Assembly (NCBI RefSeq): GCF_964204865.1
Contig: NC_135255.1
Span: forward strand, 6,353,135-6,417,134
DNA: 64,000 nucleotides
Source of the DNA: Styela clava
Lineage: Eukaryota > Chordata > Ascidiacea > Stolidobranchia > Styelidae
Direction: 5' to 3'
Shown one piece after another: positions 23,279 through 64,000 of the stretch. The number at the start of each line of letters is the position of its first letter. Positions within the stretch are counted from its first letter, which is position 1. The notes beneath the pieces are model-generated. The model saw nothing but the letters and a program-made list of their open reading frames with translations, searched no databases and had not been told where the DNA came from. The position numbers and the translations under genes are program-made.

Positions 23279-23297
23279 CTTGATATTACGCGATACA

Positions 23298-23764: not shown

Positions 23765-30393
<6,629 letters not shown>

Positions 30394-37855: not shown

Positions 37856-37997
37856 GAATTTCCAGCACGATCTGCATTCCTAACTTAAACTACCAAGATG
37901 GCGCACAACCTGAACACTGTATGTGTACCTGGTTAGGGTTCAGGTTGTGCGCCATCTTGGTAGTTTAATTTAGGAATGCAGATTGTGCTGAAAATTC
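37856..37997. mobile_element. Palindromic MITE with extended arms
   Basis: 142 bp. The core is the same GATGGCGCACAACCTGAAC palindrome, but the inverted homology extends outward through ACCAAG, TTAAACTA, GGAATGCAGAT and AGCAC to GAATTT / AAAATTC. Arms of about 60 bp are nearly complementary, longer than in other copies. Confidence 0.85.
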
Positions 37998-39347: not shown

Positions 39348-41890
39348 GCCCAAATCATTTGAAATCTTTTCAATTTAGATGTCTATAGTATGAATAAAAT
39401 ATATATGTTTTTTTTCGGGAAATCCACAGACAAATATTACTTTCAATATATTGAGTATAAGCTCAGTTTTGGTTTGTGTGTCAAATGAAATTTTCTAAAA
39501 ATTACAATCTCAAAATTTCAAAATAACATGATACGCACAACTACCGTTTTATTCTGGCTATTGAGTCGGCCCAGTGAATAAGGCTAGGGCCATGTTTCAG
39601 AAATAAAAAAAATTAAGCTTTTTTTCGTTCCCGCCCAATAGTCGAGATACAGGAATGCATTAAATTGATCTTATTTTTGTCAGTTTGGGCACCAATGCGC
39701 GCTCATTGTTTATGGCAAAATCTGTTAAACCGAACCCATGCTCATTTCGTAGAATCGCGGAATTAAATATTCTGTCCTACGAATTAACTGTAGCAATATC
39801 CTGTGAATAATAACATAATCAGTACAGCGCAGGGGCTAACTGCTGTGTTGTCCCATCTGCTGTCGTTTCGTTTAATTGTCCACACCGAAAGGCCAATTAC
39901 TATCTTGAAATGTCAGTCTATTTAAAGGTTATTAGGCCAGCATAAATAAAAGGCGTTTCACCGCAATAGGGTGTCACGTTGTGATTACGACAAACAGTGA
40001 AATTTTTTCATAGTGATACTTTTAGTTCAGCAGTGTATATCTGCAGAGATACTGGAAGAGTTTGAACTATGCCTCGTTAAGTGCAATTCAGTTAAAACAC
40101 AACCCCAACTTAATAATCATGCGAATATTAAAACTTGTTGTTTATCCTAGGGTGCCTATATCTACTAATATGTCTGACATTTTTGAAATCGTAGTCCTGG
40201 CCTTTTTCATTAATCTGATGAGCGTTTTTGCCACAAATGGTAGTTGACACTAACTAACATACTATATAAAGAAATCAGGCTAATTTTTTAAATGTAACTG
40301 TGGCTCATTGTGACCTGTACGCTCGGGTAGTTCACAGTTGATATTCATGCCAATGATGTTCCCAACCAGTTCAAACTGGAATCGTCCCAAATTTCCAATA
40401 ATGATATTATAAGAGTGAGTCATACTATGTGAATTGAGATAGTCGTTAATTTTACACCTTAAAGAACTCGTGTTCCAACTAAATTTTCAAAAACGATACT
40501 GTATAAATTATATTCAACCTAGTGTAAACTCTTTTTTGGTTCTTATCCCCTTGCTAAAAGTCCTTATGTTATCATAGCATCCATGTTCATAACTATTTAA
40601 AAATAATGAAATAGAAATGCGTGTCCTATTTTCTCCATTGTTAGTGCGGGTCACGTCATGTTATGCCTAATCATGTGTATTGAAAAGAGCTTAATTAATA
40701 TAAACTCGCCTATATAATTTCTACTGAATGGTCTCTTTCATATACGTCACTCACCGTCAATATAAGATATAGTAGTTTCAAAACTCTAAGAATTCTTACT
40801 TTTAGATATTAGGAACTTTGGTGTCGCTGCTCGATAACCAGTTTGGTTCCCCGCGACGTCCCTTTCCCAGTAAAACGGTGTAAATTTTATGGTTGTGATA
40901 CTTTTCACTGGTTGGAAAAAAAAAAACTTGACTTGACTTGATTAATCGTGTATCTTACCCCTTTTGGTACTAGTTAACCATGACATTCGTGTTCACATGT
41001 GTTTCGAACTAAAATTGCATTAAGTTTCCAATAACGATATTATATGAGTGAGTAGAATCAAGTGCGTCAATATGCATCAATATAACCGGGAATCGTACCC
41101 CCTTTAGGACTGGTTAACAATGGGATTTGTGTCCAAAACTAACATTTCGAAGGTTACTATATATATACATGAGATCCCACCAATTATAAATCTACTATAG
41201 CCAGCCCTATTGCTAGTAGCCTTATGTTCATAAGCGTTTGAATCTGGGAATATATTCCTTATTTTGCTATCGTTTATTCCCTAGTTATGATCTGTCATGA
41301 TCTTATATTTATATATATAATGTCTAAAATGTCTTTGGCATTTATAGATGGCATCAAGTTATTTATAGATGTATATTTTCAGGTCTCTGGGATGGGAAGA
41401 AAAGACTATAGAGAACTTGAAGGTAAAATATAACACACTAATAAATAATTTACTAGTTAAGATTCAGATAATGAGATACAACATAGCACACTGACAGATC
41501 ATTCCGAATAAGTAATATTTATAATATTGAAAATCTGCAAATAATATAGAATGAACGTAAATGAATATCAGTACAAGTTGTCGTCCTTGTATTTTTAGGA
41601 TAAGTATAGCTTATCACAAGAGCGTGGACAATTTTTTCGAGGGGCGTAAAGGTAATTAGAAACAGAAATATTTGTTAAATTTTATATTTTCCGCCTTATT
41701 TTTGATATTTACATTTCTTAATAGCCGTATTTTCAACGTGCTTTTGAATGAATATAAATATAATTTATATTATGTGTTGCAATATTATAAACTGACGGAT
41801 CATTCCAAAGTAATGTTAGTAAATAAGGGGAAAATCTGAATAATTTGTCAATCAACTGATAATTAATATTTTTATTTTATGTATAAGTAT
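39348..41890. other. AT-rich sequence with internal repeats, no gene seen
   Basis: TTTCCAATAATGATATTATA near 40,395 recurs as TTTCCAATAACGATATTATA near 41,020. CTTGACTTGACTTGATT lies near 40,930. Short exon-like pieces flanked by AG and GT occur at about 41,383-41,421 and 41,600-41,650, but nothing conserved is encoded. Confidence 0.45.
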
Positions 41891-42157
41891 AGCTTCTCTG
41901 TGCTCCTGTCAAATTACATTTTCCGTAACTTATAAATCTAAAAATTATTAATGACTTAAATCGAACAACTATATTTATTCAAATCAATATTATACAAAAT
42001 TTACTTGCAGTTCATTATCTCGCATAAAGTTCAGCTTTCTGAAACTTGAAAGCGGAAAAGGCAGTTTATCATTATACATCAAAAGACATGCGGAGTTATT
42101 TGTCCGATTATGCATCACTGAGAGAGGTGGATGCATCGAGTCTAAAGAGCAGGTATG
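41891..42157 (+). repeat. Exon-like module, copy 2
   Basis: CTCCTGTCAAATTACATTTT starts the match. The end reads GCATCACTGAGAGAGGTGGA, TCGAGTCTAAAGAGCAG, then GTATGT, a good donor. The middle differs from copy 1. Confidence 0.6.
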
Positions 42158-42234
42158 TTTTTAAAATCTTCTGAATCTTTCTAATTTACATTAATCACAA
42201 ACAAGTTAGAATACTATATTATAAAAATCGGTGA

Positions 42235-42900
42235 AGAAATAAATGATAAAGAGGTGAATCCGCAACCCAATTTCTTGATTGCGGCATTATAAAATATTAA
42301 AATTAAAATATAAAACGGAAGATATCACCATAAGTTTTGTTTTAGCAGTCTCGCAGCAGATTGAAAACGCTTTTTAGACATTGCGAATCACAAAATTTGG
42401 TGCTATGTTGGGATTTCTTCAAAATATATGCCATAATAGTAACTGAAATCGAAACACAGTAAATTGTTCACGCGATGTACCTTTTGTCTAATTTGAAACT
42501 AACTACCTATGAAGCCGCATACGACGTTTTCTCGGTATGTGACGATATATAAAATAATTAATGCAAAATATATCGATTGATTTTTTTTCGCAATAATTTA
42601 AATTACAATCGTTCGTATTTTGTCTATATCTTGGGATATTTCAAACGGTGAAACCTTAAAAAGAATCAGAGTGACAGGCCTGCGGCGGGGCGGATTCAGT
42701 GTTGTTACACTTGGTTTCATTGTTCTTCATTTCAAGTCCACTGATTGACGCGGTAATTTTGAGTTGTAATGATTTTATATTGTCGTAAGACGTAAGTCGT
42801 CGCAACTGCAGGTTTCATTGAACACAATTAAGCCAATAAATACCGCATTTTAAATATTGCCGCATCCAGGGGTGCAGCCAGGATTTTCCAATGGGGGTTA
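42235..42900. repeat. Dispersed repeat also found inside the 44.6-46.5 kb hAT element
   Basis: Blocks TTTCTTGATTG, CCATAAGTTTTGTTTTAGCA, CACAAAATTTGGTGCTATGT and GCAACTGCAGGTTTCATTGA match 45,135-45,870 in order. The right end, AGGGGTGCAGCCAGGATTTT near 42,871, is reverse-complemented near 46,265 (AAAAATCCTGGCTGCGCTCC). Confidence 0.6.
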
Positions 42901-43894
42901 CGTTGTAGCCCGTCTCTCTTTGCCTGATGGTGTTGGTGAATATTTTACAAGTCGTATTTTAAACGTCGACTATTAGTCCGTAGTCAGCGGGTACCCGCAT
43001 TTGGAAATAAAACATCAAAAAATCGGGAAAATTAATTTCAGAGAGAACTAAAACTCGCAGATGTCAGTAGTGTCATAATGGTTTATATGTACAAAAATAC
43101 GCTCGCATGTAGCGCCGATCAAATGCATGAAATGTGAAACTATTACTTGGAATTTATGAAGTTTTATTTCCATTCAATGATTATGTACTTGCGCCGTGAT
43201 CACTGGCGGGCAAAATCGTATTTTTTAATCGAGTTAATCGAATATTTTTAACGGACACCGAATAATCAGTATTGTCATTTTGAACGACATCAATTGGGAT
43301 GTCGTCCGCCGAAACCATCGCCGTGGCAATACTTTTTTTTTCGGATTTTACTTGAACAGTGTGGCTTTTTTATTTCATAATTTTGTCGTAATCGAAGGCC
43401 TCAGTGAATTATTTGTCACCGCGATCGTTTTGGCGGCCGACAATCCAATTATGTTGTTAGACTATATTTAAAGCACTTTTTTATTCACTAGTAAATATTT
43501 ATTATCACGGCGGATATCGTAGTTTTTAAATTTCGGACATGATTGTGAGTTCACATCGGCAAAGAGGGACAACAAGTGCATTCACAACACAAATTAATTT
43601 TATTATGATTTCTATCATTACGGTCCATATTTTAGGCGAACAATACCATCATTATTGACCCCGGGGTGCGATATTTTTGAAGCGGATAGTTGGACATTTC
43701 TATGCGTTTAATTTTAGATCGTGTCGGTGTTACTTTTGTGTTAAATAATAATTTAAAGAACTTCGTAAATTGGTAATCACTACAATACTCACTGTTGAAT
43801 GTTCACGTAACTCAACTTTGTTAAAACACTTTTTTAATTGATACTGACCCATGAATAAATCGGCAATAATGGCATTTCTACGTGGTTAAAATAA
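42901..43894. other. Spacer, nothing recognised
   Basis: No gene or RNA recognised. A short open frame at 43280-43471 lacks a domain. Confidence 0.4.
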
Positions 43895-43920
43895 TATTGT
43901 TTATGTATTTTTAATATAAG

Positions 43921-44121
43921 CTTACCTTTGCTTTACCTCTGTTAATAAGCATTTTTTGTGATTTGTAACTCCAAAACTTGATAATGAAACTACATATTTA
44001 TTTTCAGTTTTCTAAGTCACTGCTTGAAAGAGTCATTGCATCAAACGGACATTGGTATTAGTCTGGTGCCTCACGGAGTGAGATGGAAGCCTATATAGTG
44101 TAAAGAGTAAAGAGCAAGTAT
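43921..44121 (+). repeat. Exon-like module, copy 3
   Basis: CCTTTGCTTTACCTCTGTTA, then TATTTTCAG/TTTTCTAAG, CACTGCTTGAAAGAGTCATT, GAGTGAGATGGAAGCCTATA and AAAGAGCAA/GTATG. It opens copy A of the duplication. Confidence 0.7.
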
Positions 44122-44596
44122 GAAATCTTATAAATCTTTCAATTCATATTTTGTCAGGTATAAACTGATATATCATGTTAAATCCCGCTAGTAAGGAAGA
44201 ACTGCAAATATTTGAATTATCCTCACAAGATGTCCATAATATTCCGCCCAATTTTATTTATATAATTTCGTAAAGTCATATAATGCAATGGTTTCCACCC
44301 GCTAGTTCACGGAAGGTGTGCAGTTTTTAGCTGGTATGCAATAAATGTTCCTGCTTTGTTAGTTTCGTATGCACAATTCCCGAAAAGACACGGGTTATGT
44401 TTCTTTTCGGCGTTCTCCCATCGTTTGACAAGTATCGAAGTATGCGGCAGTCCGCCAGCAATCGGGTTATATTACTGATAATGGGGCAATTGCGGCTGCA
44501 TTAATACAATAAGTCGGGCCTCATTTTATAGTATTTATTGTATTCGTATTTTATGGGTTTATTTCGTTTCCATAGCGTTTTGTTAGTTTTTCAATA

Positions 44597-46464
44597 GTCT
44601 AGAACAGGGGTTCTCAAACTTTTGGTGTTGCGGAGCCTTCGAAGTGGTTGACTATTATTCACGGAGCCCCAAAATAAATTTTAAAATTGTTACTTTCCGA
44701 TTAATATAACTGAGTAAGTTAAAAGTACTTTACTTCATTTAATTGCTAAACCTTTTTTAATAGGGTTAATACAAGTCATAAATAAATCTAAATTTTAAAG
44801 ATAAATTATACCTATTAAGGCTGTAAATTTGACACTTAACAAACATATTAATAAATTAGGGGTCGAATCTTTTCCCTTTTGATGTTTTTGGAAGACTTGA
44901 AAGATCGCTAATAACGTTCGCGATTGCATTTTGTTACAACCGCCGATTGTTTTCGTCAGAGTGACGTGCTTTTCAAACCCCAAACATCCTAATGTCTGTG
45001 TTTATTCTCCCTCCCTAAATCTAAATTTCCTTCGGCATATATATGTATTGTTCCACAATGACGACAATAATTGCTTTTTTGTTCTCGTGGGGAATTATGA
45101 GTTCGATGTGAAAAACATGTTATTTAAAAATAGGTAAATCCGCAACTCAAATTTCTTGATTGAAAAGCGGAATTATGAAATATATATTGAAACTAAAACT
45201 TAAAACGAAAGATACCACTATAAGTTTTGTTTCTGCAGATTCGTGACAGATTAAAAACGCTTTTTTAGTCGTTGTAATCACAAAATTTGGTGTTTTGTTA
45301 GGTTTTCTTTGGTTATCCATCGTAGTAATTAAAATCGAAACACAGTCAATTGTGCGCGTGATGTGATGTAGCTACCTGCAATAAAATAAATTTCAATCTT
45401 CGTATTTTGCCCAGACCTTGTGATTTTTTAAACGGCGATATCTTGCAAAGAATCGGAGTGGCGGACTTGCGATGGGGCGGAGTTAGTGTTGAAAAAATGG
45501 CTCAAATTTGTCGAATTCGCTATAATCTGCCGCTCTATCTGTCATGATTACGATTTAATCAGGACGGGCACAAATATCTTATCAAACTACTGGCACCAGT
45601 AGTAGGTATGTTCTTTTGTGGACAATATATATATATGACTTTGCTTCTAATATCTTATGATAACAGCGTCGTTCAGGATAAACGGTAGTCCAGAAGAACT
45701 TCGTTCACTTAACTTCGTTTCATTGTTTCTCATTTCATGTCCGCGGATTGTCGTGGTAATTTGAGAAGTAATGATTTTTATTGTCGTGAGTCGGCACAAC
45801 TGCAGGTTACATTGAACCCAATTAAACCAATAAACGAGTCATTTCAAAATGCCCGCATCGGTCATGGGTTGCACAATTGTAAATTGTACTCATTGAGTTT
45901 TAACGCCGACCTGGTGATTTTTGAAACGGCGATATCTCGCATAATAATAATCTCGAGTGCGGATGAACAAATCATATTTGACAAATCCCTAAAATACGAT
46001 TTCATTTTATTTATAGTTGACAGTTTATCACGTATTTTATGGTATTTTAGAATAGTAAACTTTTATTTCAGCAATCTCGAATCAAACGTGAGTAACGATG
46101 AGTACCATTAAATTATTATGATAAGACATTTTAAATGCTCGCATCATTCATGGATTGAATATTTTACGCAGCAGAAATCTCGTTATCCGCTGAAAATTTT
46201 TTTTTAGTCTAGAAGAGTGTTCCGCGGAAATTTCCGACTTCAACATTGAACCCCCCTCCCTCTTAAAAATCCTGGCTGCGCTCCTGCTTATAAATAATTT
46301 TTGAATTCCGCCTCTATGCCATATTTCGTGGCTATATTGAACAATTACAAAATTAGCCAAGTCAGTATTTTGAAAAGTAATCAAATAGCTCGCGGAGCCC
46401 CTGGGTTTCTCTCGCGGAGCCCTGGGGCTCCGTACGGAGCACTTTGAGAACCTATGGTCTAGAA
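44597..46464. mobile_element. hAT-like element with perfect 8-bp target duplication (copy A only)
   Basis: The element spans 44605-46456 (1,852 bp). It starts CAGGGGTTCTCAAACTTTTG and ends CACTTTGAGAACCTATG, inverted termini around GGTTCTCAAA. Both flanks are GTCTAGAA (44597-44604 and 46457-46464). Copy B at about 52,428-52,440 reads AATAGTCTAGAACAGTAGTT, the uninterrupted site with one GTCTAGAA. No transposase frame. The interior contains a block shared with 42.2-42.9 kb, so it is nested or composite. Confidence 0.92.
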
Positions 46465-49400
46465 GAGTAGTTTTTAACCAGGGTTCAATCGACTTTTTGT
46501 TTTTTGTTGGAGTAACAGGGGTTCGACGAGCTTCCTTCAAATTAAAGCAAGTTTTCTATTATGGGAATTTCTATCCCAGCGTCTACTAATTATGCAAATT
46601 TAACTACAATTCATCTCAGATATTTAAACTTACACTTTCAACAACTTATAAATTAGCGTTGCTGTTTGTATAGCGTTGCGCAGTTGTAAGTTTTAGTGAA
46701 CCCGTCATCTCCACGGATGTCGCGAGCTTTGGTGTTTGTGCTTATATGATAGTGCCCTTTGATGCTTTCTGCTTATGACTTTGAAACATCTTCGATTTCT
46801 ATGGCAAACTAAGAATTTTCAACCTGAATCCTTTCATATTCTATAACCTTGCACGAAATTATGCTTCCCCTTTATAAAGTCTTAATTGGGCACCTAATTT
46901 CAACCATCAGGTACAATGGGGTTTGGCGGGAGCTTTTAGGATAGCGCAGGAGTTCGACAGGCTTGGAATGGTTAGGGTTTAGAATTTGGAAAATCTACGG
47001 TGTATTATTTTATTTGATGTTGCCATATCGCTAGAGCAGACAGGTACAAATAGATTGGTTTGAATATCCATCCAATTCATATCTAATTTATCAAATTACA
47101 TTTTCGGTCATTCATAAACCCAAAACTTGACATAGTTCATATAGTTCACATAATGGCATAGTTCGAAAAATTATTGGTACATTCAAATTTTAACCCCCAA
47201 GCCGAAATTAGATCGAAATAATTAAATATTTTTCTGAAATCAATTAATTTTTGTAAAATTTACCATCTTCGAATACCACATTGTGCCACCGCAAGTTTTT
47301 GTTGAATTAAGTTTTTGGACACGTCAGTGTACATAACGATCGTTTCAATATTATGTTGTTGTTCTTGTTAGTATTCTTCTCTTTCGTCATGATGAAATCG
47401 CTTTTCTTTTCGAATACTGAACAATTGCTTTGAAATTTTCAGTGGTTAAAGATTGATTTTTTTGCCAGAAGGCTATTACTTTTCTTATTTCAATAATTTC
47501 TGTGGACCTCAAAGATTCGCGTTTTTTATGTTTCGGAATAAAAAATAGCGACACCTTGTGACGTGTCCAAATATTTGAGCACAGCTCTCTTGTTTATATT
47601 AGTCCTCGATTTAATGGAATATTCAAATATTTCCCCGCTAGATCGGAAAAGTTTCTTTGAAAAATGAGAGATTTGATTTGAAATTAATGCTTTCATTGAA
47701 TTGAATTTAAATCCGTCGTTAACAAATTAGTGGTTGTCCGGCTTGGGTTAGGTTTCGGGTTAGGAGAAATTGAAAAATTTTAAATCTGCATTCAGGGGTG
47801 TTTTTTGAAATAAATGCTTTCGTTGAATTGAATTTAAATCTGTTGTTAACTTAAATGCCCAACCCAGATTTGTATTTGGTAAATTTTTATTTAAATATAA
47901 AAAATTCTGATAAATAATAATTTATTTCTAAGTCATTGTCGCGTGAATGTCTTAGTCGTACAAAAATACATTTGTGAATGCTAAATGATGTGAATTGTAT
48001 TTTACTTTGAGTAAAACAGTAAAGATGCAAAGTAAGAATGTTAAGCTAAATAGTGGGGTAATGAAAGAAAATGTATTAACAAAAAAGCGCTGGATGTTTC
48101 CACGAATTTGAGAAATAAATGAAATAGTCACTTCTAATTCTCCGATGAAGCGTAATAAATTGGTAGATTCGAAAACACGCAACATGAGGACTTTTTATCA
48201 AATTTTCAGAATTTTCTGATTTTGTCGCAACGACACTGATCAGTTTGTTCTTCCTTAGGGATTGCGAATACTTTAGAATAGTTTTGTTTTATTAGCTGAA
48301 TTGTTATTTATCCGACGCTGACACTGAATATTCATAGTTTCTAATATGTATGTTGAAATGGTTTATTTTTGAACGAAAAATTAAAATGTTTTAAGCAAGC
48401 TGACAAGCTAGAAAAATCTTAGTTACACTGCACGCATGCCAGGTCATATTTATTAATTCCTCGCTCAATCGTATGTTTTTCTTTTTTAGCTGATCCTCTG
48501 CTAATAAGTGCTAATACAATACAATGCAGCAATAATCGCGAAAGTCGTTCAGGTTCATTCTTGAGCCGTTTTTCCAGAGTTTCTAACATTTCAAATTTTT
48601 CATTTTGTCAAGGCTAGTTTTTTATTTCACATTTTGTTTTGTCTCTGTACAAAATATTTCATATAGTTTATAATTGTTATCAAATTGCTGTGTTTGATTA
48701 TTGCTCGATCTGTTTATCCTGGGTTTGTGCGCTCGATATTCCAACGGTTGTTGTTCTGACTCCTTTTCAGAAGGTGCAGTCTGGTTGTCGGGTATTCAAT
48801 GTAGTAAAAAAAAAGATTCCCTGTGATTGGTTACTAAATCTGTTCTAGGCTGCACTGTTGTATATTTTACGCTTACACTGGATATTCATATTTTACAGCG
48901 CATAGAAAACAGTCCCAAACAGGCTGGCAAGGCAGAAAATATTCAATTTACATTGCACACATGTCGAGTCATATTATTTAAGCCTTCGCTTAATCGTTTG
49001 TTCTTCTATTTTAGGACATTTATAAACTCGTTTTCCCTCTTAACTTGCTTCTAATTTTAAAGATGGAGGGTGTTAGAATATTTTAGGATAAAACACGTCC
49101 AATCAACTGTTAACTGAAGGCGCTTGTTGGATGTAATTGTGTCAAAATTATACCAGTTTGAGCTTTTAAAAAAAATAAAAATGCGAATTCTACTGATGGC
49201 TTTAATGTAGGTACATATTAAAACTCTTATTTTTAGTGCGATTGCTTTAATTCCTTTTAATAAACCCTCTTTGGGTTTAGTACAAAATATAGAACGCCGT
49301 TAACATTATAAAGAGGAAAATATGGGATACCTGTAAAGAAGAAAAATGTCCGTCCATTTTATATTTCTGCGAACATTTTCTGCAGTTCTTTGCGTTTCAT

Positions 49401-50669
49401 ACTTTTTCATTTCTCTTTGTTGTCAAGACTTTATGATTTTTTACAGTTTTTTGATCTTGGTTTAAAAAGACCATAATATTATAGTGTGAATTTTTACACG
49501 CATTTTCTACTTGAGTCTCTCGCTTATCGTTTGTTCTCCTTTCTCCCCCTAATAATAGGTCATCTATAAACTTGTTTTGGTATCACGATGCCATGAAAAT
49601 ATAATGTCATTTGAACTTACGGGTTATGTTCTGATTTTCGCGTTTTTTTACTGTAACTTGGTTCTAATTTTATCGCTCGAATTCAAATTAGAAGGATTTT
49701 AAGTCGAATCACGTCCAAATATTAACTGAGGACAGCTAAACTAACCCAATATGATATGTTCATTTTGCAATATTATTTTTGCCTTGAATAGTAATTTTTT
49801 TAACAAATGTTCATATAACTATCGTGTATTATTTACTTGTTTTATTTTATCATTAATTGCGGTAGATTGACTTTTCATTTATTTCAATTTCGGTTTGGAA
49901 TGATTAAAATGAGTGTTTTACCTTCTGCTTAAAACAAACATCAGTGTCGTTATACAGTCAGTGCTTGTCAAAACTAATTTAAAAAGCTTTCGGTAAAAGG
50001 TATCGGGTATCGGTAATATCGGCAATTTTTTTGGTATCGGCATTCGTATCGATATCGGCTAAATGTAGACTGATATTTTCAAGATAATTAACTTTTATTC
50101 TATTCCAGAATGTTTTAAAAAGTAGGTTGAAATACTGACATGAAAATTATTTTTTGCTTGGAGTGATCGTGTTCGCGGTATTAACCTCGTTAGGTAGGAA
50201 CAATGTTGTTTCCCAACCGCGCGAATAGAAACGGGAATATGATTATGACATGATTTTAGCCATTTATCACCTCAACTAATTTGGCTATTTTTGCAGCCAA
50301 TTTTTTATATTGACATTTTTAACATTGCACGGGAATCATGAAGAAATATATCGAATGGGAATTTTTCGATGTGCAAAATACAAAATACGACGTTATAATG
50401 TCATAAAATTCTGTGCACGCAACTCAGTATGTATCAGTTAGATAGAATGAGTGAACATTTATTTATTTTACCACCCACAGTAGCCAAACCCGAATAGCCA
50501 AAGACATAGTTCGAACAACAATATCTCTTCTCTGTATTTCTGTCTTGTGAATTGAATAACTTGATAATGTCTTAGGTCAACGAAATTTAGTTCCACCTAA
50601 AGTAAGATGGACTCGGTATGCACATAATATGGCATTAAATTAATATTTTTATGTATTTTTATTATAAGA

Positions 50670-51017
50670 TAACCTTTGCTTTACCTCTGTCAAACAGCAT
50701 TTTTTTGGGATTTATTACTCCAAAACTTGATAATGAAACCATATATTTATTTTCAGTTTTCTAAAACACTGCTTGAAAAAGTCATTGCATCAAACGGAAT
50801 CGACAAAATTTATAGTATTGTGCATCACAGAGTTAGATGGAAAATAACCTTTGCTTTACCTCTGTCAAACAGCATTTTTTTGGGATTTATTACTCCAAAA
50901 CTTGATAATGAAACCATATATTTATTTTCAGTTTTCTAAAACACTGCTTAAAAAAGGCATTGCATCAAACGGAATCGACAATGTTAATAGTATGGTGCAT
51001 CACAGAGTTAGATGGAA
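50670..51017 (+). repeat. 174-bp tandem duplication of the exon-like module (copies 4 and 5)
   Basis: Units at 50670-50843 and 50844-51017 start ATAACCTTTGCTTTACCTCT and run to CACAGAGTTAGATGGA, with few differences. Each carries an acceptor-like TATTTTCAG. Only the second continues into the AGAGTAAAGAGCAA/GTATG donor end (near 51,045), so the duplication copied the module without its 3' edge. Confidence 0.9.
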
Positions 51018-51227
51018 GCCTATTTAGTCTAGAGAGTAAAGAGCAAGTATGTAATCTTATAAATCTTTCAATTCATATTTTGTCCGGTATAAACTAATAT
51101 ATAATGTTAAATCCCGCTAGTCATGAAGAGCTGCAAATATGTGAATTATTCTCACAAGATGTCCAAAATATTTCGCCCATTTTTTTTTATAATTTCGTAG
51201 AGTCATGTAATGCAATGGTTTCCACCC

Positions 51228-52139
51228 TCTAGTTCAGCGGTTCCCAACCTTTCTACCCTGGCGGACCGGTAAAATTAAATTAAATGTACTCGCGGACCGG
51301 CAAATAATTGAAAAGACCGGAACAGAAACGAATAACATATATTTGCGTAATATAATGCAATGTCGGGCACTCAGTATGCTTTTAGATGAAAAAAGGCACA
51401 CTTAAAAATATCATATAATGTGCCGGCCAAAAATTGAAATGGGTAAAACATGAATATATTTGCGTAATGAAATGCAGCGCTGGGCACCCATTATGAATGT
51501 AAGAAAGGCACACATACAACATCTCACATGAAAAACATGTAAATGCCACTGCAGTTGATCGACGCATCAAACAAATTGAATTTACATCACAATGACAAAG
51601 TCGTCGGTGACTTGGCACCATGCTCAAAATCCAACTGTACCTGCTCAAAATACTGGAAAAGATCTCAGCGGCCCGTGCTTTTTTGCGCGTCTTGTGACCA
51701 CCTGCAGGGTCGGAACAAGTAGGCCTACATATCTTACTGGAATATTATACTGTTTTTAACTGTTTTCGGGTTTAAACAAAGAAATATGCATAACGTTTTA
51801 TATGGATGGTAATGTTAATTAGGAAAAGCATGCTGAACAGAAAAAGTACGCGTGCCGATTTATAGGTTTCTGAATCTTGCGAGATTTGATGCCGCGCATT
51901 CGCGATGAATCGAAGCCGAAAAAGCGAAAAGTGTGATTACTCGGCGCCAAGATGTCGTGAAAGAAGTCGCCAATATGACGGCGAAAGAGAAATTGCGTAA
52001 TAAACTAACGTAAACTCGTCTTCGGTAAAGCGATTGAGACGGCATAAGAACAACGAAATTTCTCGCGGACCGGCAAAAAAGCTTTGCGGACCGGCACCGG
52101 TCCGCGGACCGGCGGTTGGGAACCACTGCAGTCTAGTTC
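51228..52139. mobile_element. hAT-like element with 8-bp target duplication (copy B only)
   Basis: The element spans 51236-52131 (896 bp). It starts AGCGGTTCCCAACCTTTCTA and ends GGTTGGGAACCACTGCAG, with CGGACCGG repeats inside both ends. Flanks are TCTAGTTC at both sides. Copy A at about 44,297-44,312 reads CACCCGCTAGTTCACGG, the uninterrupted site. No transposase frame recognised. Confidence 0.9.
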
Positions 52140-54287
52140 ACGGGCGAGTGTGCAGTTTTTAGCTGGTATGCGATAAATTTTGCTAATTGGTTAATTTCGC
52201 ACACATAATTCCCGGAAAGACGCGGGTTTTGTTCCCTTTTGGGCGTTCTTCCATCGTTTGACAAGTATCGCCGTATGCGCCAGTCGCCAACAATGGGGTT
52301 ATAATACAGGCAATGAGGGCATTTGCAGCTGCATTAATACAATTGGTCGGGCCTCATTTCATAGCATTTATTGTATTCGTACTTCATGGGTTTATTTCGT
52401 TGCCATAGCGTTTTGTCAGTTTTTCAATAGTCTAGAACAGTAGTTTTTAATTAACCAGGGTTAAATCGAACTTTTGGTGTTTGTTGGTGTTGTTCTAGGG
52501 ATTCGACGAGGTTCCTTTAAATTAAAACAGTTTTATATTATGGGACTTTTCTATCACATTGTCTATTAATTATCAAATTTAACTACAGTTCATCTCAGAT
52601 ATTCAAAGTTACACTTTCAACAACTAATAAATTAGCGTTGCTGTTTGTATAGCGTTGCGCAGTTGTAAGTTTTAGTGAACCCGTCATCTCCACGGATGTC
52701 GCGCGCTCTGGTGTTTCTGCTTATATGATAGTGCCCTTAGATGCTTTCTGATTATGACTTTGAAACATCTTGGGTTGTTATGGCAAGCCAAGGATTTTCA
52801 ACCTGAATCTTTTAATTTTCTATAACCCTGCACGAAAGTATGCTTCCCCTTTATAAAGTCTGGAATTGGGCTCCTAATTACAACCATTCGGTACAATGGG
52901 GCTTGGCGGGAGCTTTCAGGATAGCGCAAGAGTTCGACAAGCTTGGAATGGTTAGGGTTTAGAATTTGGAAAATCTACGGAGTGTTGTTTTATTTGATGT
53001 TGCCTTTTCGCTAGAGCAGACAGGTACAAATAGATTTGTTGAAATATGTATCCAATTCATATCTAATTTATCAAATTACATTTTCTGTCATTCATAAACT
53101 CAAAACTTAACATAGTTCATATAGTTCACATAATGTCATAGTTCGAAAAATTATTGGTACATTCAAATTTTAACCCCCAAGCCGAAATTAGATCAAAATA
53201 ATCAAATATTTTTCTGAAATCAATCAATTTTTGTAAAATTTATCATTTTCGACTACCACATTTTCCCACCACAACTTTTTGTTGAATTAAGTTTTTTATT
53301 CAATCCTCGATTTGATGGAATATTCAAATTTTTCCCCGCTGGGTCGGAAAAGTTCGAAATAATTCAATATTTTTGAAAAAACGTATGGTGCAATATACTA
53401 ATTATTAAGGTATATTACCACAGTTGTAAATGTTTCTTTGAAAAATGAGAGATTTGATTTGAAAAAAAATGCCTCCATTGAATTGAACTTTAAACTTAAA
53501 TTTTTAAAATAACAAATTAGTGGTTGTCCAGCTTAGGTTAGGATTCGGGTTAGGAATAATTAAAAAAATTGAAATCTGTATTCGGTGGTGTTTTTTAAAA
53601 TTAATGCTTTTGTTGAATTGAATTCTGTTGTTAACTTGAATGCCCGACCCAGAGTTGTTTTTGGTAAATTTTTATTTAAATACAAAAAATTCTAATAAAT
53701 AATAAGAATTTATTTCTAAGTCATTGTCGCGTTAATGTCTTAGAGTTAGACGTACAAAAATACATTTGTGAATGCTAAATGATGTTTATTGTAAGAGTAA
53801 AACAATAAAGATGCAAAGTAAGAATGTTAAGCTAAATAGTGGGGAAATGAAAGAAAACGTAGCAACAAAAAAGCGTTGAACGTTTCCACAAATTTAAGAA
53901 AGAAATGAAATGGTTACTTCTAATTCTCTGAAGCGTAATAAATTGGTAGATTTGAAAGCACGCAACATGAGGACTTTTACGAGATAAATTTTCAGAATTT
54001 TCTGATTTTGTCGCAACGACCTTGATCAGTTTGTTCTTCTTTAGGGATTGCGAGTACTTTTGCAGAGCAATGCTGTATTATATAATGATATTTTGCAAAA
54101 ATCTTAATCTATGTAATGAAGAGAGGTAAATGAACTGCAAAATTCTTGTTTCTAACACCCTTTTTTACACAAAATTCCTCACACTATATCTCCGCCATAA
54201 CAAAAACGCTTGATCAGATGTTTGAAAGCTGCACAGAAACAGATTCATAAAAAAAACGCAAGTTACTTTTCGGATTTTGTCTCCCTT

Positions 54288-54567
54288 ATATTCTTCATTG
54301 GTTCACATTAGTTCACATGCGATTTTTGGGGCATGTCGCCAGAACAGAAGGCCTAACAAAAGACTTGCTCTTTGGTAAAACCCCTGGCAAAAGAAGACGT
54401 GGGAGACCAAAAACAAGAATGTCAGACAACGTGAAGGACATCGCAGACATAAGCATGCTTGAGTTACTCAGAATGGCACAAAACCGGAAACAATGGCGGC
54501 GATTCGTGAAGAGTGCCACGGCTGGTCAGTGATGACCATCCCGTCAAAGAGAGAGATATTCTTCATT
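54288..54567 (+). mobile_element. 5'-truncated LINE fragment with 12-bp target duplication
   Basis: ATATTCTTCATT flanks both sides (54288-54299 and 54556-54567) of a 256-bp insert. The insert encodes, in one frame at 54317-54532, a typical C-terminal tail of endonuclease/reverse-transcriptase LINEs: MRFLGHVARTEG, LLFGKTPGKRRRGRPKTRMS and WRRFVKSATAGQ followed by a stop. It ends in GAGAGAG with no poly(A). Catalytic domains are absent. Confidence 0.85.
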
Positions 54568-56485
54568 AGACACGACTTAGTTTTGGTGGTAAAAAATGTA
54601 AATCAAACAGCAGGGTTGTACAAATTATAATACAGGAAGACCAGCAAGAAATAACTGGGTGAAGAGTAATTACTTAGTATCTCACGAGCCAACATTGAGT
54701 TTCTCGCTGAATTTAATCGTATTTTCAACCCTAAATATTAACTTTTTAATATAGAAGTAAAATGATATTTTCTGTTGTTTGCTGTCTAGTTCTGTTTTAT
54801 TAGCTGAATTGTTATTTATCCGACGCTGACACTAAATATTCATAGTTTCTAATATGTGTATTGAAATGGTTTATTTTTGAACGAAAAGTTAACAAGTTAA
54901 GTTAGTTAATCTTAGTTACACTGCACGCATGCCAGGTCATATTTATTAATCCCTCCTCGCTTAATTGTATGTTTTTCTTTTTAGCTCATCCTCTGCTAAT
55001 AGGTGGTCATTTTGTACACGAAACTGGAAGTAATGAAATACAATAATATGCAGCAATAATAGCGAAAGTAGTTCTGGTTCATTCGCGAGCCGTTTTTCCG
55101 GAGTTCCTAACATTTCAAATTTTTCATTTTGTCAAGGCTAGTTTTTTCTTATACATTTTGTTTCGTCTCTGTACAAAATATTTCATATAGTTTTTGATTG
55201 TGATTAAATTGATGTGTTTTATTATTGCTCGATCTGTTTATAATCGGTTTGTGCGCTTGATATCCCAACGGTTGTTGTTCCGACTTCTTTTCAGAAGGTG
55301 CACTCTGGCTGTCGGGTATCCAATGTAGTGTAAAAAAAAATGATTTTTTGTGATTGGTTGCTAAATCTGTAGTATGCTGCACTGTTGTATACTTGAGGCT
55401 TACATAGAATATTCATATTTTCCAGCGCATAGAAAACAGTCCCAAACAGGCTGGAAAGGCAGAAAATATCCCATTTACATTGCACACATGCCGAGCCATA
55501 TTATTCAAGCCTTTGCTTAATCGTTTGTTCTTCTATTTTAGCTGATCCTCTGCTAATAAGTGGACATTTATAAACTCATTTTACTACTTTAACTTTCTTC
55601 TAATTTTAATGTTGGAGAGTGTTAGAATATTTTAGAATAAAACACGTCCAGCTAACTGTTAACTGAAGGCGCGTGTTGGATGTAATTGTGACAAAATTAT
55701 ATCAGTCTGAGCTTTTAAAAAATAAAAATGCGGATTTTACTGGCTTTCATGTAGGTACATCCTGAAACTCCTATTTGTAGTGCGATTGTTTAAAAATCAA
55801 ATTCTAAAATATGTTAACGTGACTATAAATATTAAAGAAAACAAATCCCCCAAAACAAATAAACCCTCTTTTAGTTTAGTACAAAATATAAAACGCCGTT
55901 AACAATATAAAGAGAAAAATATGGGATACCTGTAAAGAAGAAAAATGTCTGTCCATTACATACTTCTACGAACATTTGTTTCTGTAGTTCTTTGCGTTTC
56001 ATACTTTTTCATTTTTTTTTTGTTGTCAAGACTTTATGATAGTTTTTGATTTTACAGTTTTTTGCTCTTGGTTTAAAAAAGAACATAATATTATAGTGTG
56101 AATTTAAAAAGTAGGTTGAAATACTGATATAAAAATTATTTTTTGCTTGGAGTGATCGTGTTCGCGGTATTAGCCTCGTTGGATAGGAGCAATGCTGTTT
56201 CCCAACCACGCGAATAGAAACTGGTATATGATTATGAACTGATTTTAGCCATTTATCAGCCCAACTAGCTCAACTAATTTGGCTATCTTTGCAACCTATT
56301 TTTTATATTGACAATTTTAACATTACATGGAAATTGTAAAGAAGTATATCAAATGTGAATTTTTCGATGTGCAAAATACAAAATACGACGTTGGCATGGC
56401 ATAAAATTCTGCGCACACAACTCGATTTATCAGTTGGATAGATTGAGTGAACATTTATTTTTTTTACCACCTACAGTAGCCAAAC

Positions 56486-58449
56486 CCGATGAGTTTTCTA
56501 ACCAAACACCGATATAATTAACATCAGTGTACAATGTATTTAAATTAAAAAACGTAGCAGGATCCAAAACATTAATTTCTTTATATCTGAAATATGGCTT
56601 TTTCAAATTTGAAAAATTGTGTGGCATGAATAATGCTTGCAAACTGTTACTTTAACTTGTTTGGACTGAACACCTGAGATAATAATTACATAGCATGTAA
56701 ATGTCGGCAATTTCTGCTTTAAAATATTAATATCGTCGTTTTATCGTTGTTGTCGGATTGGTATCGGCGACAAAAGGTATCGGTACATCTCTTAGTTGGA
56801 ATCTCTAGTATAATGTAATGGACGTTAATGTATTGTTTAAAATAGATATACACTTCATGCGTTATTGTATCAAATATTATGTTGTAAAACAATATACTCT
56901 TTCACTGCAAACCTCGTATGATATCAAATACCATCTTTTTTAAGCCATCAAGCATGTAATAGTATGTTACACATACTACTACTAAGATTTATTTCCTCAG
57001 CAACAGACAAAGTTTAATTGTTTTCTTCCGTATATATATTTGACCCGGGGTTATTTCAAAAGTTATCGGGCGTTGTACTTTCAGTGAATGACCGCTCATA
57101 GACTTCTCTCTTTAAGGCAATTCATCTTCTGTTCGTGGGGAGAAAAGAGGCATGTTGACTTCAACAAAATCTTGTATCGGTTTTGTCTCCTCATATTCTT
57201 GTTTGTTTATAGTTATTTCGGATCATTGCAGGTCGGCTATTTAAAAGTTAATTCGCATTTGAAGTTTGTCGTTCAAGTAGTGTTAATTTAATTGCTGTAA
57301 TAATCGGATTGTTTGCTTGTTTTATATTTTGGTTAAATGATAGGGTTTATTCAAATTGCATAAATTAATGTTGCTATTGTTTGCATCTTTTGGAATTAAG
57401 TATGTTGTAGACATACTTAGGTTGGTCGTAAACTTTAGCAACCCAATACATTATGACCGAGTATGACAGATGTCCCAATATATTGGCTTATGTGAAAAGT
57501 AGGGTTAATTGTTTTGGCTTCTACATTATGCGTTTCGACCTCTACAATAATCATTTTTATCAGCACACTATTTGACGTTTTTCATCACATATTATTCGTT
57601 TCTCGTACTTTGGTTTATGTAGACTGGATATTTCATTGCCAGTAACAGAATTCAATCATATTCAAAGATGTGTAGTTGTTAATATCGGGAAATAAGTGTT
57701 AAGGGAGTTGATGTTGCGCAGCGTCACCGCCCAACACGTTATAGGCGTCTTGTAGAGCCTCATCATACGTAATAAGTTGCTCATAATTTACTTCCTCTAC
57801 TATAAAAGTGCATAAGAAATAAATGTATATATATTTTTACAGGATTTTTCAATTATGGAACTTGACGAATCTTTCTGTTTTTCAAAAGAAAATACAACTC
57901 AATTATTTGAATAAGAAGAAGAGTTTTATTAAACATAACTGAGATGTGCTAGCCAACAAATGCATCGAGTCCACACAAGACTTTGATATAGAAAAATAGA
58001 CTGATGTTTGAGACTGTATTTCATTGCCATACGTACTTTAAGCTCGTATGTATGTGCACTGATTACTAATATGTAATCGCAAACAAATGCATTGGGCAGC
58101 ACATACACATGTCTTTTATATCAAATAAGACTGTTGTTTAAAACTATACCAAAATGTCATACACACTGTCAAAGAATTATATGCGGAAGTTTAACATGGG
58201 TCGACCCGCGAGGAACTAACTATTTATGTAATTTGAATAATTGCAAACGGCTTTTTGATTGTATATTTATTATTGAATTGAATCATAACTCAGAAAACTA
58301 AATACAATTGTTATTTGTATTCTAACACCCTGCAATGCAATCCTGTGTTTGATGTCCTGTTATGATAATTTTAAAATGATTCTTTCGTTTTACGTTATTT
58401 TTATATTTTTATTACTGTTATTGTAAATTACTGATTTATTAATTATATT
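56486..58449. other. Spacer between the duplication and the exon array
   Basis: No gene recognised. A GGTATCGG-rich hAT-like end (GGTATCGGTACATCTCTTAG) lies near 56,777-56,796. Short frames such as 57088-57291 and 58092-58301 lack domains. A possible first exon is hinted at by TTTTTACAG near 57,842 and a short ATG frame at 57855, but it ends after 19 codons without a donor. Confidence 0.4.
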
Positions 58450-61400
58450 GTCGTTTATTACTGATATTGTATATTTTTAAATAAGCTTTTTTTGTAATAT
58501 GATGTTTCCATATTTAGCTATCTTATTTGTCATATTTATTATTTTATATTGTATTTTTGGAGATATTTTCAACAGGTAAACAAGATATCGTGACAACGAC
58601 AAAGGAAAAAAAGTATTAACAGGGCTTGCCATCTATAGTGTTCATTTTGATTTTAGTCGGTATAATAATTTTCTAAAGATATTAATACTGATACAATATT
58701 GCACGAAGTATGATGTTTATTGCTGATATTGAATATTTATTGATAAAGCTTTTTTAGTAATATACTGTATCCATATTTTCCTATCTGTGTTTGTCATAAT
58801 CATTAATTTCTCTTCTATTTTTAAGATATTTTCAACAGGAACCAGGATATCGTGACACCGACAAAAGAAGAAAGGTATTAACAGATCTTGCCATGGCTTT
58901 TTTGTTTTTAATATTTTATTTGGTATAGATAGATTTAGACCCATTCCCGCCATTAGGAATAATAGGGTTTTTATTAGGCTTAGATATTTTTAATGTTATT
59001 CTAGCTTCTCAGGCACAGAACTATGAAGGGACTTGGAAAATTAGGAAAAGACGGATACAAGGAAAATCTACAAATTACATGTAAATATTTTTACGAATTT
59101 TATTAGGATTAGATAGAAGAATCTAAGGCACAGAATTTTGAAGGCACTGGAGAAATTGAAAAAAGACGGAATCAGAGACAAATCTGAAAGTCCGGTAAGT
59201 ATGCCCTATCCATATTTCCCTATCTTATTTGTCTTAATCATTAATTTCTCTTCTATTTTTAAGATATTTTCAACAGGAACCAGGATATCGAGACACCGAC
59301 AAAAGAAGAAAAGTATTAACAGGGTTGCCATGGCTTTTTGTTTTTAATATTTTATTTGGTATAGATAGATTTATACCCATTCTCGCCATTAGGAATAATA
59401 GGGTTTTTATTAGGCTTAGATATTTTTAATGGTATTCTAGATTCTCAGGCAAAGAATTATGAAGGCAATAGGGAAATTAAGAAAAGACTGATACAAGGAA
59501 ACAATGGAGAAAATAGGAAAAGACTGATACAAGAAAAATCTACAAATTGAATGTAAATATACTTACAAATTTTATTAGGCTTAGATATTGTTAATGTTAT
59601 CTAAGCTTCACAGGCACAATATTTTGAAGACACTGAAGAAATTAAAAGAAGACGAAATCAGAGACAAATCTGAAATTCCAGTAAGTATATCACAAGTGTT
59701 TCATTAGTCAGGCTTACTCGTTGATTTCAATTTTAGTTCGATATAATATTTTTTTGGTTATATTAATACTGATACAGTAATGCACGAAGTATTATGTTCA
59801 TTGCTGACATTGAATGTTTAATAATAAAGCTTTTTTAGTAATATGCCCTATCCATATTTGCCTATCTTATTTGTCTTAATCATTAATTTCTCTTCTATTT
59901 TTGAGATATTTTCAACAGGAACCAGGATATCGAGACACCGACAAAAGAAGAAAAGTATTAACAGGGTTGCCATGGCTTTTTTGTTTTTAATATTTTATTT
60001 GGTATAGATAGATTTATACCCATTCCCGCCATTAGGAATAATAGGGTTTTTATTAGGCTTAGATACTTTTAATCTTATTCTAGCTTCTCAGGCACAGAAC
60101 TATGAAGGGACTGGGAAAATTAGAAAAAGACGGATGCAAGGAAAATCTACATATTACATGTAAATATTTTTACAAATTTTATTAGGCTTAGATATTGTTA
60201 TTATTATCTTAGCTTCTCAGGCTCAAAATTTTGAAGGCACTGGAGAAATTGAAAAAAGACGGAATCAGAGACAAATCTGATATTCCGGTAAGTATGTTGC
60301 AAGTGTTTTATTAGTCAGGCCTACTCCTTCTATCTAGTGTTCATTTTGATTTTAGTTCGATATAATACTTTTTTGATTATATTAATACTGATACAGTAAT
60401 GCACGAAGTACTATGTTTATTGCTGATTGAATATTTAATATTATTTAATAAAGCTTTTTTCGTAATATGCTGTATCCATATTTTCCTATCTGTGTTTGTC
60501 ATAATCATTAATATCTCTTCTGTTTTTAAGATATTTTCAACAGGAATCAGGATATCGTGACACCGACAAAAGAAGAAAAGTATTAACAGGGTTGCCATGG
60601 TTTTTTTGTTTTTAATATTTTATTTGGTATAGATAGATTTAGACCCATTCCCGCCATTAGGAATAATAGGGTTTTCATTAGGCTTAGATATTTTTATTGG
60701 TATTCTAGCTTCTCAGGCAAAGAATTATGAAGGCAATAGGGAAATTAGGAAAAGACTGATACAAGGAAACAATGAAGAATATAGGAAAAGACTGATACAA
60801 GAAAAATCTACAAATTGAATGTAAATATACTTACAAATTTTATTAGGCTTAGATATTGTTAATGTTATCTAAGCTTCACAGGCACAATATTTTGAAGACA
60901 CTGAAGAAATTAAAAAAAGACGAAATCAGAGACAAATCTGAAATTCCAGTAAGTATATCACAAGTGTTTCATTAGTCAGGCTTACTCGTTGATTTCAATT
61001 TTAGTTCGATATAATATTTTTTTGGTTATATTAATACTGATACAGTAATGCACGAAGTATTATGTTCATTGCTGACATTGAATATTTAATAATAAAGCTT
61101 TTTTAGTAATATGCTCTATCCATATTTGCCTATCTTATTTGTCTTAATCATTAATTTCTCTTCTATTTTTAAGATATTTTCAACAGGAACCAGGATATCG
61201 AGACACCGACAAAAGAAGAAAAATAATAACAGGGTTGCCATGGCTTTTTTGTTTTTAATATTTTATTTGGTATAGATAGATTTATACCCATTCCCGCCAT
61301 TAGGAATAATAGGGTTTTCATTAGGCTTAGATATTTTTATTGGTATTCTAGCTTCTCAGGCAAAGAATTATGAAGGCAATAGGGAAAATTAGGAAAAGAC

Positions 61401-64000
61401 TGGTACAAGGAAACAATGAAGAATATAGGAAAAGACTGATACAAGAAAAATCTACAAATTGAATGTAAATATACTTACAAATTTTATTAGGCTTAGATAT
61501 TGTTAATGTTATCTAAGCTTCACAGGCACAATATTTTGAAGACACTGAAGAAATTAAAAGAAGACGAAATCAGAGACAAATCTGAAATTCCAGTAAGTAT
61601 ATCACAAGTGTTTCATTAGTCAGGCTTACTCGTTGATTTCAATTTTAGTTTGATATAATATTTTTTTGGTTATATTAATACTGATACAGTAATGCACGAA
61701 GTATTATGTTCATTGCTGACATTGAATATTTAATAATAAAGCTTTTTTAGTAATATGCTCTATCCATATTTGCCTATCTTATTTGTCTTAATCATTAATT
61801 TTTTCTTCTATTTTTAAGATATTTTCAACAGGAACCAGGATATCGAGACACCGACAAAAGAAGAAAAGTATTAACAGGGTTGCCATGGCTTTTTTGTTTT
61901 TAATATTTTATTTGGTATAGATAGATTTATACCCATTCCCGCCATTAGGAATAATAGGGTTTTTATTAGGCTCAGATACTTTTAATCTTATTCTAGCTTC
62001 TCAGGCACAGAACTATGAAGGGACTGGGAAAATTAGAAAAAGACGAATGCAAGGAAAATCTACATATTACATGTAAATATTTTTACAAATTTTATTAGGC
62101 TTAGATATTGTTATTATTATCTTAGCTTCTCAGGCTCAAAATTTTGAAGGCACTGGAGAAATTGAAAAAAGACGGAATCAGAGACAAATCTGAAATTCCG
62201 GTAAGTATGTTGCAAGTGTTTTATTAGTCAGGCCTACTCCTTCTATCTAGTGTTCATTTTGATTTTAGTTCGATATAATACTTTTTTGATTATATTAATA
62301 CTGATACAGTAATGCACGAAGTACTATGTTTATTGCTGATTGAATATTTAATATTATTTACTAAAGCTTTTTTCGTAATATGCTGTATCCATATTTTCCT
62401 ATCTGTGTTGGTCATAATCATTAATATCTCTTCTATTTTTAAGATATTTTCAACAGGAATCAGGATATCGTGACACCGACAAAAGAAGAAAAGTATTAAC
62501 AGGGTTGCCATGGTTTTTTTGTTTTTAATATTTTATTTGGTATAGATAGATTTAGACCCATTCCCGCCATTAGGAATAATAGGGTTTTCATTAGGCTTAG
62601 ATATTTTTATTGGTATTCTAGCTTCTCAGGCAAAGAATTATGAAGGCAATAGGGAAATTAGGAAAAGACTGATACAAGGAAACAATGAAGAATATAGGAA
62701 AAGACTGATACAAGAAAAATCTACAAATTGAATGTAAATATACTTACAAATTTTATTAGGCTTAGATATTATTAATGTTATCTAAGCTTCACAGGCACAA
62801 TATTTTGAAGACACTGAAGAAATTAAAAGAAGACGAAATCAGAGACAAATCTGAAATTCCAGTAAGTATATCACAAGTGTTTCATTAGTCAGGCTTACTC
62901 GTTGATTTCAATTTTAGTTCGATATAATATTTTTTTGGTTATATTAATACTGATACAGTAATGCACGAAGTAATATGTTCATTGCTGACATTGAATATTT
63001 AATAATAAAGCTTTTTTAGTAATATGCTCTATCCATATTTGCCTATCTTATTTGTCTTAATCATTAATTTCTCTTCTATTTTTAAGATATTTTCAACAGG
63101 GACCAGGATATCGAGACACCGACAAAAGAAGAAAAGTATTAACAGGGTTGCCATGGCTTTTTTGTTTTTAATATTTTATTTGGTATAGATAGATTTATAC
63201 CCATTCCCGCCATTAGGAATAATAGGGTTTTTATTAGGCTTAGATACTTTTAATCTTATTCTAGCTTCTCAGGCACAGAACTATGAAGGGACTGGGAAAA
63301 TTAGAAAAAGACGGATGCAAGGAAAATCTACATATTACATGTAAATATTTTTACAAATTTTATTAGGCTTAGATATTGTTATTATTATCTTAGCTTCTCA
63401 GGCTCAAAATTTTGAAGGCACTGGAGAAATTGAAAAAAGACGGAATCAGAGACAAATCTGATATTCCGGTAAGTATGTTGCAAGTGTTTTATTAGTCAGG
63501 CCTACTCCTTCTATCTAGTGTTCATTTTGATTTTAGTTCGATATAATACTTTTTTGATTATATTAATACTGATACAGTAATGCACGAAGTACTATGTTTA
63601 TTGCTGATTGAATATTTAATATTATTTAATAAAGCTTTTTTTCGTAATATGCTGTATCCATATTTTCCTATCTGTGTTTGTCATAATCATTAATATCTCT
63701 TCTGTTTTTAAGATATTTTCAACAGGAATCAGGATATCGTGACACCGACAAAAGAAGAAAAGTATTAACAGGGTTGCCATGGTTTTTTTGTTTTTAATAT
63801 TTTATTTGGTATAGATAGATTTAGACCCATTCCCGCCATTAGGAATAATAGGGTTTTCATTAGGCTTAGATATTTTTATTGGTATTCTAGCTTCTCAGGC
63901 AAAGAATTATGAAGGCAATAGGGAAATTAGGAAAAGACTGATACAAGGAAACAATGAAGAATATAGGAAAAGACTGATACAAGAAAAATCTACAAATTGA
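58450..64000 (+). repeat. Tandem array of exon-bearing units of about 0.63 kb, cut by the window end
   Basis: The marker AGGATATCG starts at 58844, 59282, 59924, 60549, 61192, 61837, 62462, 63105 and 63731, with a worn copy at 58582. Full-unit spacings are 642, 625, 643, 645, 625, 643 and 626. Two unit types, X (625) and Y (643), follow the order X Y X Y Y X Y X Y. Each unit has three exon-like segments: e1 (…CCAG/GATATCG to GAAAA/GTATTA, 29 bases), e2 (after CTTCTCAG) and e3 (67 bases after an AG, then GTAAGTAT). Read e3 to e1, the phases fit and give DIETPTKEEK plus a 22-codon stretch containing ILKALEKLKKDGIRDKS. All eight complete e3 copies are open. The product is unrecognised. Confidence 0.85.
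59923..60299 (+). CDS. Candidate 32-codon repeat module (one example unit), hypothetical
   Basis: Example from the X unit. e1 is about 59926-59954, acceptor CCAG before GATATCG, donor AAAA/GTATTA. e3 is about 60225-60291, acceptor TTCTCAG, donor CCG/GTAAGTATG. e1 begins in phase 0 and leaves two bases; e3 supplies one base to complete Lys and ends in phase 0, so e1 plus e3 equals 96 bases and can repeat indefinitely. The peptide is Lys/Glu/Leu-rich and likely helical. The intervening e2 (about 60092-60159) resembles e3 but is 68 bases and would break the frame; in Y units e2 has an in-frame stop. A rival reading uses the earlier AG (GGAACCAGG) and joins e1 to e2 in another frame, ending at a stop. 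No known family is recognised and expression is unproven. Confidence 0.4.

Follow-up and report, generated by a model that had tools for sequence, protein, structure and literature searches.

An exon-like tandem array inside a dispersed composite repeat of Styela clava is probably a non-coding satellite

The right end of a 64,000-nucleotide (nt) stretch of the Styela clava genome (C6:6,353,135-6,417,134; hereafter the window) is occupied by a tandem array whose units contain exon-like islands, and the question raised by this locus is whether such an array is a gene or a satellite. The original prediction, made from the window, had offered both readings: a gene grown by unit duplication and encoding a 32-residue repeat, or a satellite that captured exons. 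When searches were extended to the whole assembly (376.6 Mb), all the arrays read were found to occupy one fixed place in a large composite repeat, which is present on at least nine contigs, and the supposed exons and reading frames were found to change as freely as the rest of the unit. We consider the array to be probably a satellite that encodes no protein and has a higher-order structure; a captured exon-intron fragment would have seeded it, and its carrier would have spread it. Its higher-order units, its many loci, its exon-like islands and the lack of coding constraint all fit the second of the predicted readings, while the first is not supported, given the absence of codon-position bias in the supposed exon e3.

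The left edge of the array was placed at 58,452 by nhmmer, and its right end was reached at L031:8527 (C6:6,424,661), ~7.5 kb beyond the window, giving a full length of 13.1 kb; the prediction that a real tandem array runs past the window end was thus borne out. Three purine-rich islands, termed e1, e2 and e3 and bordered by splice-like signals, are present in each unit, and the window contains 10 e1-like copies, one of them degenerate (58,584), together with nine e2 and eight e3 copies. The e1-to-e1 spacing was 625-645 nt in seven intervals, in agreement with the expected ~0.63 kb, and this regularity broke down at the left edge, where spacings of 262 and 438 nt were obtained. The two expected unit types, X (~625 nt) and Y (~643 nt), were both present; among seven complete units identity was 89-90% between X and Y and 97.5-100% inside a type, and the two types mainly alternate to make a 1.27-kb dimer in the window. 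The left part of the Y units at 59,284 and 61,194 carries X variants, which we read as putative exchange points between e1 and e2.

As predicted, e3 was 67 nt long and open in the proposed frame in all eight window copies. Counted from a CCAG acceptor, e1 is 29 nt, and 29 + 67 = 96 would keep the phase from unit to unit; a second acceptor, AACAG, lies seven bases upstream and adjoins a T-rich tract, and if it is used e1 becomes 36 nt and the phase of e1 plus e3 is no longer kept. The proposed chain of e1 and e3 also leaves out e2, an island with similar borders, which is 68 nt in X, 104 nt in Y (where it holds a 36-nt duplication) and 105 nt in one window copy. Furthermore, the signals are not identical in every unit as had been supposed, since, besides the degenerate copy, at 61,223 ATAATA stands in place of the e1 donor GTATTA and the first e3 is preceded by CTAAG, the other copies by CTCAG or CACAG. 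Purine-rich islands with a pyrimidine-rich CAG before and a loose donor, GT[AG][AT][AGT][AT], after were counted on both strands, and 42 were found in the 5.6-kb array against 8 in 36.9 kb of window sequence outside it, a count in which the donor pattern had been fixed after the array was seen and repetition multiplies one founding unit. The exon look of the array is not due to chance, because few such splice-bounded islands occur in the window outside it.

With a 95-bp e3 query, 1141 loose candidates were obtained in the assembly, and all 40 that were scored were 100% identical. Ten arrays on three chromosomes (C6, C8 and C9), not all of them complete, were then compared; they comprised ~210 units, with 220 e1 matches and 424 non-overlapping e2 or e3 matches. 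As in satellites, the units were arranged head to tail at all of these loci and showed multi-unit periodicity, the periods being 625+643 in the window, 620+626+621 on C9, 643/607 on C6 and 672/622 on C8. Of the 164 distinct units, 95 had their nearest neighbour within their own array; homogenisation may not be purely local, and units could have been exchanged or recently copied from one locus to another.

Phase was not kept from unit to unit in these arrays, as it would be in a gene of tandem exons. Among 209 e3 matches, 175 were 67 nt long, 10 were 66, two were 68 and one was 64, the remaining 21 being unresolved by extraction; of 209 e1 copies in register, 172 kept both borders, 23 were without GT (seven having GC instead) and 15 were without the AG of CCAG. 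The proposed exon chain was broken at least once in every array read: nine of the ten contained a broken e1, and the tenth (C6 7.19 Mb) contained three 66-nt e3 copies. Nine 66-nt e3 copies in the C6 6.91 Mb and 7.19 Mb arrays (L033, L034 and L037) are fully open in frame 0; they probably descend from a one-base deletion passed between units.

Codon constraint was assessed by parsimony: changes were counted on trees built from the distinct sequences, the expectation being the same changes placed at random. For the 67-nt e3 (48 distinct sequences, 67 changes), the changes fell 19/24/23 on codon positions 1/2/3 of the proposed frame, so that the codon-position bias by which the original prediction wished its gene to be judged was absent. 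There were 15 synonymous and 51 replacement changes, where 16.0 synonymous were expected without constraint, and 5 changes to stop, where 5.1 were expected; the omega-like ratio was 1.09 (0.60-2.08). Synonymous changes in e2, frame 0, likewise numbered 13 against 14.9 expected (68 nt, 38 sequences) and 11 against 11.4 expected (104 nt, 34 sequences), and those in e1, in the frame of the prediction, 14 against 14.4 (38 sequences, some edge copies being out of register). In contrast, a single cluster on C19 served as positive control, and ten of its fibrinogen-domain exons (99 codons) gave 69 synonymous changes against 34.5 expected and an omega-like ratio of 0.33. Coding tests confined to the window involved 2 to 23 differences and had little power.

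The rate test pointed in the same direction. Over 164 distinct units (187 in total), exon-like parts had 1.67 changes per site and other parts 1.55 (p=0.63); the values were 1.67, 1.99 and 1.34 for e1, e2 and e3, e2 being the highest of all parts, and 1.83, 1.39 and 1.43 for the three other stretches. The e1 donor dinucleotide had 9+2 changes, which places it among the top 1.6% of dinucleotides, and the constancy of AACAG is uninformative because this motif was used in choosing e1 copies. Within the window set, divergence of e3 between X and Y was not raised above that of other stretches (p=0.36), and variants private to a single unit were equally frequent in exon-like (7 of 208) and other (17 of 457) columns.

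Several results weigh against a non-coding satellite and are gathered here. Of the 175 e3 copies of 67 nt in the ten arrays, 170 have an open proposed frame. Frame 0 of e3, which contains a stop in 159 of the same 175 copies, showed an excess of synonymous changes (19 vs 12.9, p=0.035), and a comparison of e2 with e3 within X, also in frame 0, gave 6 against 3.1 (p=0.03); this excess is weak, as several frames and sets were tested, and that of e3 may be a relic of the exon from which the array was founded. Changes at the four e2/e3 splice dinucleotides were five together, somewhat below random (P=0.08), and the AG sites of e2 and e3 were little changed, a constancy partly built in by the extraction, which required AG before both islands. 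Between X and Y, e2 (60092-60159 and its counterparts) differed at 13 of 68 positions against 37 of 436 in the sequence between the islands (p=0.014). Finally, exchange between copies makes the changes non-independent, so that all p values are guides only.

To the fixed position of the array within its carrier, both flanks bear witness. The left edges are alike in the window and in L035, L037, L039, L043 and L045, and five right edges are alike in that the final unit breaks off behind e2, with ~0.65 kb of common sequence between it and a 39-bp minisatellite; another exon-like island stands after the last unit. Beyond the minisatellite, three of the four loci compared share further sequence (93-96%), and the fourth (L034) ends too early for this comparison. 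Leftward, shared sequence reaches at least window position 38,500: queries 38500-41700, 41800-43800 and 57500-58300 each matched all 40 scored candidates, the window included, many matches of the first two being partial. Some stretches between the searched carrier parts are without counterpart in two other loci read, carrier parts are also present at sites whose left flank is not among the listed matches, and no convincing coding exon was found in the upstream duplicated segment.

The left flank gave 345 candidates, of which 40 were scored; these lay on nine contigs and were 90-97% identical, self excluded. The right block (L031:8600-8900) gave 192 candidates, and the 40 scored were 94-100% identical. 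For 34 of the 40 left flanks a right flank was found in the same order and strand; dispersed copies whose flanks agree to the left and right of the array are likewise a feature of transposable elements that carry internal tandem repeats. The spacing of paired flanks, minus a fixed offset, was 3.1-29.6 kb with a median of 16.8 kb, which corresponds to ~5 to 47 units per locus and ~870 in total if the whole spacing is array, as was checked at the fetched loci only. On C19, eight copies are spaced 81-101 kb apart in a region that also contains fibrinogen-domain exons.

Some observations were made on the right flank itself. The minisatellite extends from L031:9184 to L032:8728 with ~232 copies in the main stretch and has other lengths at other loci; its reverse strand holds an open 13-residue repeat of 164 codons in L042 and L044 and of 116 codons in L047, and at the window locus no opening over 100 codons. 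A 60-base segment (L031:8781-8840) had zero variable sites in five aligned copies, where most other stretches had ~4-5 per 60, and no Rfam family matched in L031:8480-9200.

From these data we propose how the satellite may have arisen. The founding unit would be a piece of some gene made of short exons and introns, an origin that would account for purine-rich islands bearing splice signals. Through unequal exchange the arrays could then grow, shrink and become homogenised, and the carrier would have been copied by duplication or transposition with the array taken along. A protein product is unnecessary for this proposed origin and spread.

Among the alternatives, a long non-coding transcription unit, in which the repeated exons are spliced and remain untranslated, would account for islands bordered by AG and GT that are far commoner than in the rest of the window, for the exon-like island past the last unit and for the few changes at the e2/e3 splice dinucleotides. 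It appears unlikely, however, as the e1 donor decays freely and the exon-like parts are no slower than the rest. RNA-family searches over the window gave none at gathering score, a sub-threshold small nucleolar RNA match lying in 60,500-63,200 (22.4 vs 43 bits), and a 31-base e1 pattern had no exact match in IMG/VR. We regard as very unlikely a more far-reaching version, a genome-wide 'exon satellite' whose hundreds of units would truly be spliced, giving long transcripts that are seldom or never translated, and would form a permanent reservoir from which genes near carrier landing sites could draw new exons.

The predicted gene, in which mini-exons e1 (29 nt) and e3 (67 nt) alternate and e2 is skipped to give a tandem 32-residue repeat protein, draws on the consistent lengths and open e3 copies described above, on a coding-like codon composition of e1 and e3 on the + strand, and on a four-module query that passed the Pfam RHH_1 cut-off (21.7 vs 20.5 bits, E 2e-4) over four ~20-residue stretches. 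Yet that score sums four near-identical, artificially joined stretches, other Pfam families stayed below cut-off, and the best PDB chain (E 0.0025) was a designed helix bundle. The open e1+e3 frame is unremarkable, since 24% of dinucleotide shuffles are open, and the codon composition is equally good in frame 0. The gene would need the CCAG acceptor, both bases of whose AG have changed twice each, in addition to the skipping of e2; it meets e3 copies of 66 nt (10) and 68 nt (two), and at the five aligned right edges the final unit is without e3. With codon constraint absent where the fibrinogen control works, this gene is very unlikely.

Also very unlikely is a small gene formed by one unit or X-Y dimer, in which e1 would be a 5' leader with a splice or trans-splice acceptor, followed by a GCCATGG start, the peptide MAFLFLIFYL, an intron, e2/e3 as last exon and AATAAA: the ATG context, the hydrophobic start, its phase match to e2 frame 0, the 36-nt duplication in Y and the AATAAA in six of the seven window units holding that stretch speak for it, whereas the hydrophobic stretch, at 1.9 changes per site, lies above the average of 1.58, the ATG positions changed 0, 3 and 2 times and the AATAAA positions up to 4 times, e2 frame 0 is unconstrained, and the donor GTATAG after the hydrophobic start is weak by eye.

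Two further candidates were rejected. A three-exon chain of e1 (36), e2 (68) and e3 (67) is open in X, as are 4.7% of shuffles, stops at the end of e2 in Y, and is rejected by the codon test. A fibrinogen-domain gene hosting every array was discarded because, among 150 scored of 224 candidates genome-wide, no fibrinogen-domain match lay <100 kb from the window array or from any listed left-flank locus outside C19. The features of the window are collected in Table 1.

Table 1. Positions of the array, its islands and the carrier parts in the window
Feature	Position	Strand	Remark
Tandem array	58452..64000	+	left edge to window end; continues to L031:8527, 13.1 kb in all
Degenerate e1, unit shortened by deletion	58584..58612	+	other arrays with same edge
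e1 (36 nt from AACAG), first near-complete unit	58839..58874	+	
e2 (68 nt)	59013..59080	+	
e3 (67 nt), acceptor altered to CTAAG	59128..59194	+	
e1	59277..59312	+	
e2 Y type (104 nt, with 36-nt duplication)	59449..59552	+	
e3 Y type	59614..59680	+	
e1, X unit serving as reference	59919..59954	+	
e2 X type	60092..60159	+	
e3 X type	60221..60287	+	
e1 (Y)	60544..60579	+	
e2 Y type	60717..60820	+	
e3 Y type	60882..60948	+	
e1, donor lost (ATAATA)	61187..61222	+	
e2 Y type, one extra base (105 nt)	61360..61464	+	
e3 Y type	61526..61592	+	
e1	61832..61867	+	
e2 X type	62005..62072	+	
e3 X type	62134..62200	+	
e1 (Y)	62457..62492	+	
e2 Y type	62630..62733	+	
e3 Y type	62795..62861	+	
e1	63100..63135	+	
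e2 X type	63273..63340	+	
e3 X type	63402..63468	+	
e1 (Y), last of window	63726..63761	+	
e2 Y type, cut by window end	63899..64000	+	
Upstream part of array-carrying composite repeat	38500..58451	+	
Two diverged copies of ~6-7 kb tandem segment, inside composite repeat	43886..56489	+	~43.9-50.5 and 50.6-56.5 kb

Ordinary genes lie to the left of the composite repeat (window 1414-2577, 13578-14834, 14905-15300, 18225-21416, 23048-23350 and 29609-29932), and they include a PH domain, an arginine methyltransferase, a proteasome subunit, an LSM domain and an AAA ATPase. The long open reading frame at 18225 (18225-21416) had no match in a Pfam search; it presumably resembles CEP131. A near-palindromic repeat family at 37788-37999, with further copies near 4.1, 4.3 and 7.4 kb, looks like a small inverted-repeat element. 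In the amplified C19 region, the exons of a ficolin-like gene (L050:4749-5078 and 7012-7368) matched Fibrinogen_C at 1e-28, the collagen match being below cut-off.

Seen at one locus alone, a satellite that grew from a piece of exon and intron may be taken for a repeat-protein gene, and copies from the same genome together with a codon test can decide between the two. For this genome, a large repeat of variable length, present also inside the amplified fibrinogen-domain cluster on C19, may mislead gene prediction.

No paper among those searched joined higher-order repeat, satellite DNA and tunicate, and the comparison was made with systems from other organisms. Satellites derived from or carried in dispersed repeats include, according to PMC4107277, the internal tandem repeats of Crassostrea miniature inverted-repeat transposable elements and the higher-order units of alpha-satellite; the present array shares with them its tandem units, higher-order structure, variable copy number and site inside a dispersed repeat, and differs from these examples in its 0.6-kb unit with three splice-bounded purine islands and in a carrier of tens of kb. 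The leucine-rich repeat genes of Tetrahymena consist, according to PMC6564038, of arrays of exactly 90-bp symmetric exons supported by RNA sequencing, with Ka/Ks (nonsynonymous to synonymous rate) values that mostly indicate purifying selection. In layout, the tandem repetition of short exons and introns there resembles the array, and unequal crossing over was proposed for them; unlike those genes, the array is without codon constraint and its lengths break phase. Schistosome micro-exon genes, according to PMC10526429, have exons whose lengths are for the most part divisible by three, and their products are secreted and carry a signal peptide. The layout of very short exons with longer introns between them is similar, but the lengths here are 29/36, 68/104 and 67 nt, multiples of three being obtained only for e1 from AACAG (36 nt) and for the rare 66-nt e3, and a signal peptide is not conserved.

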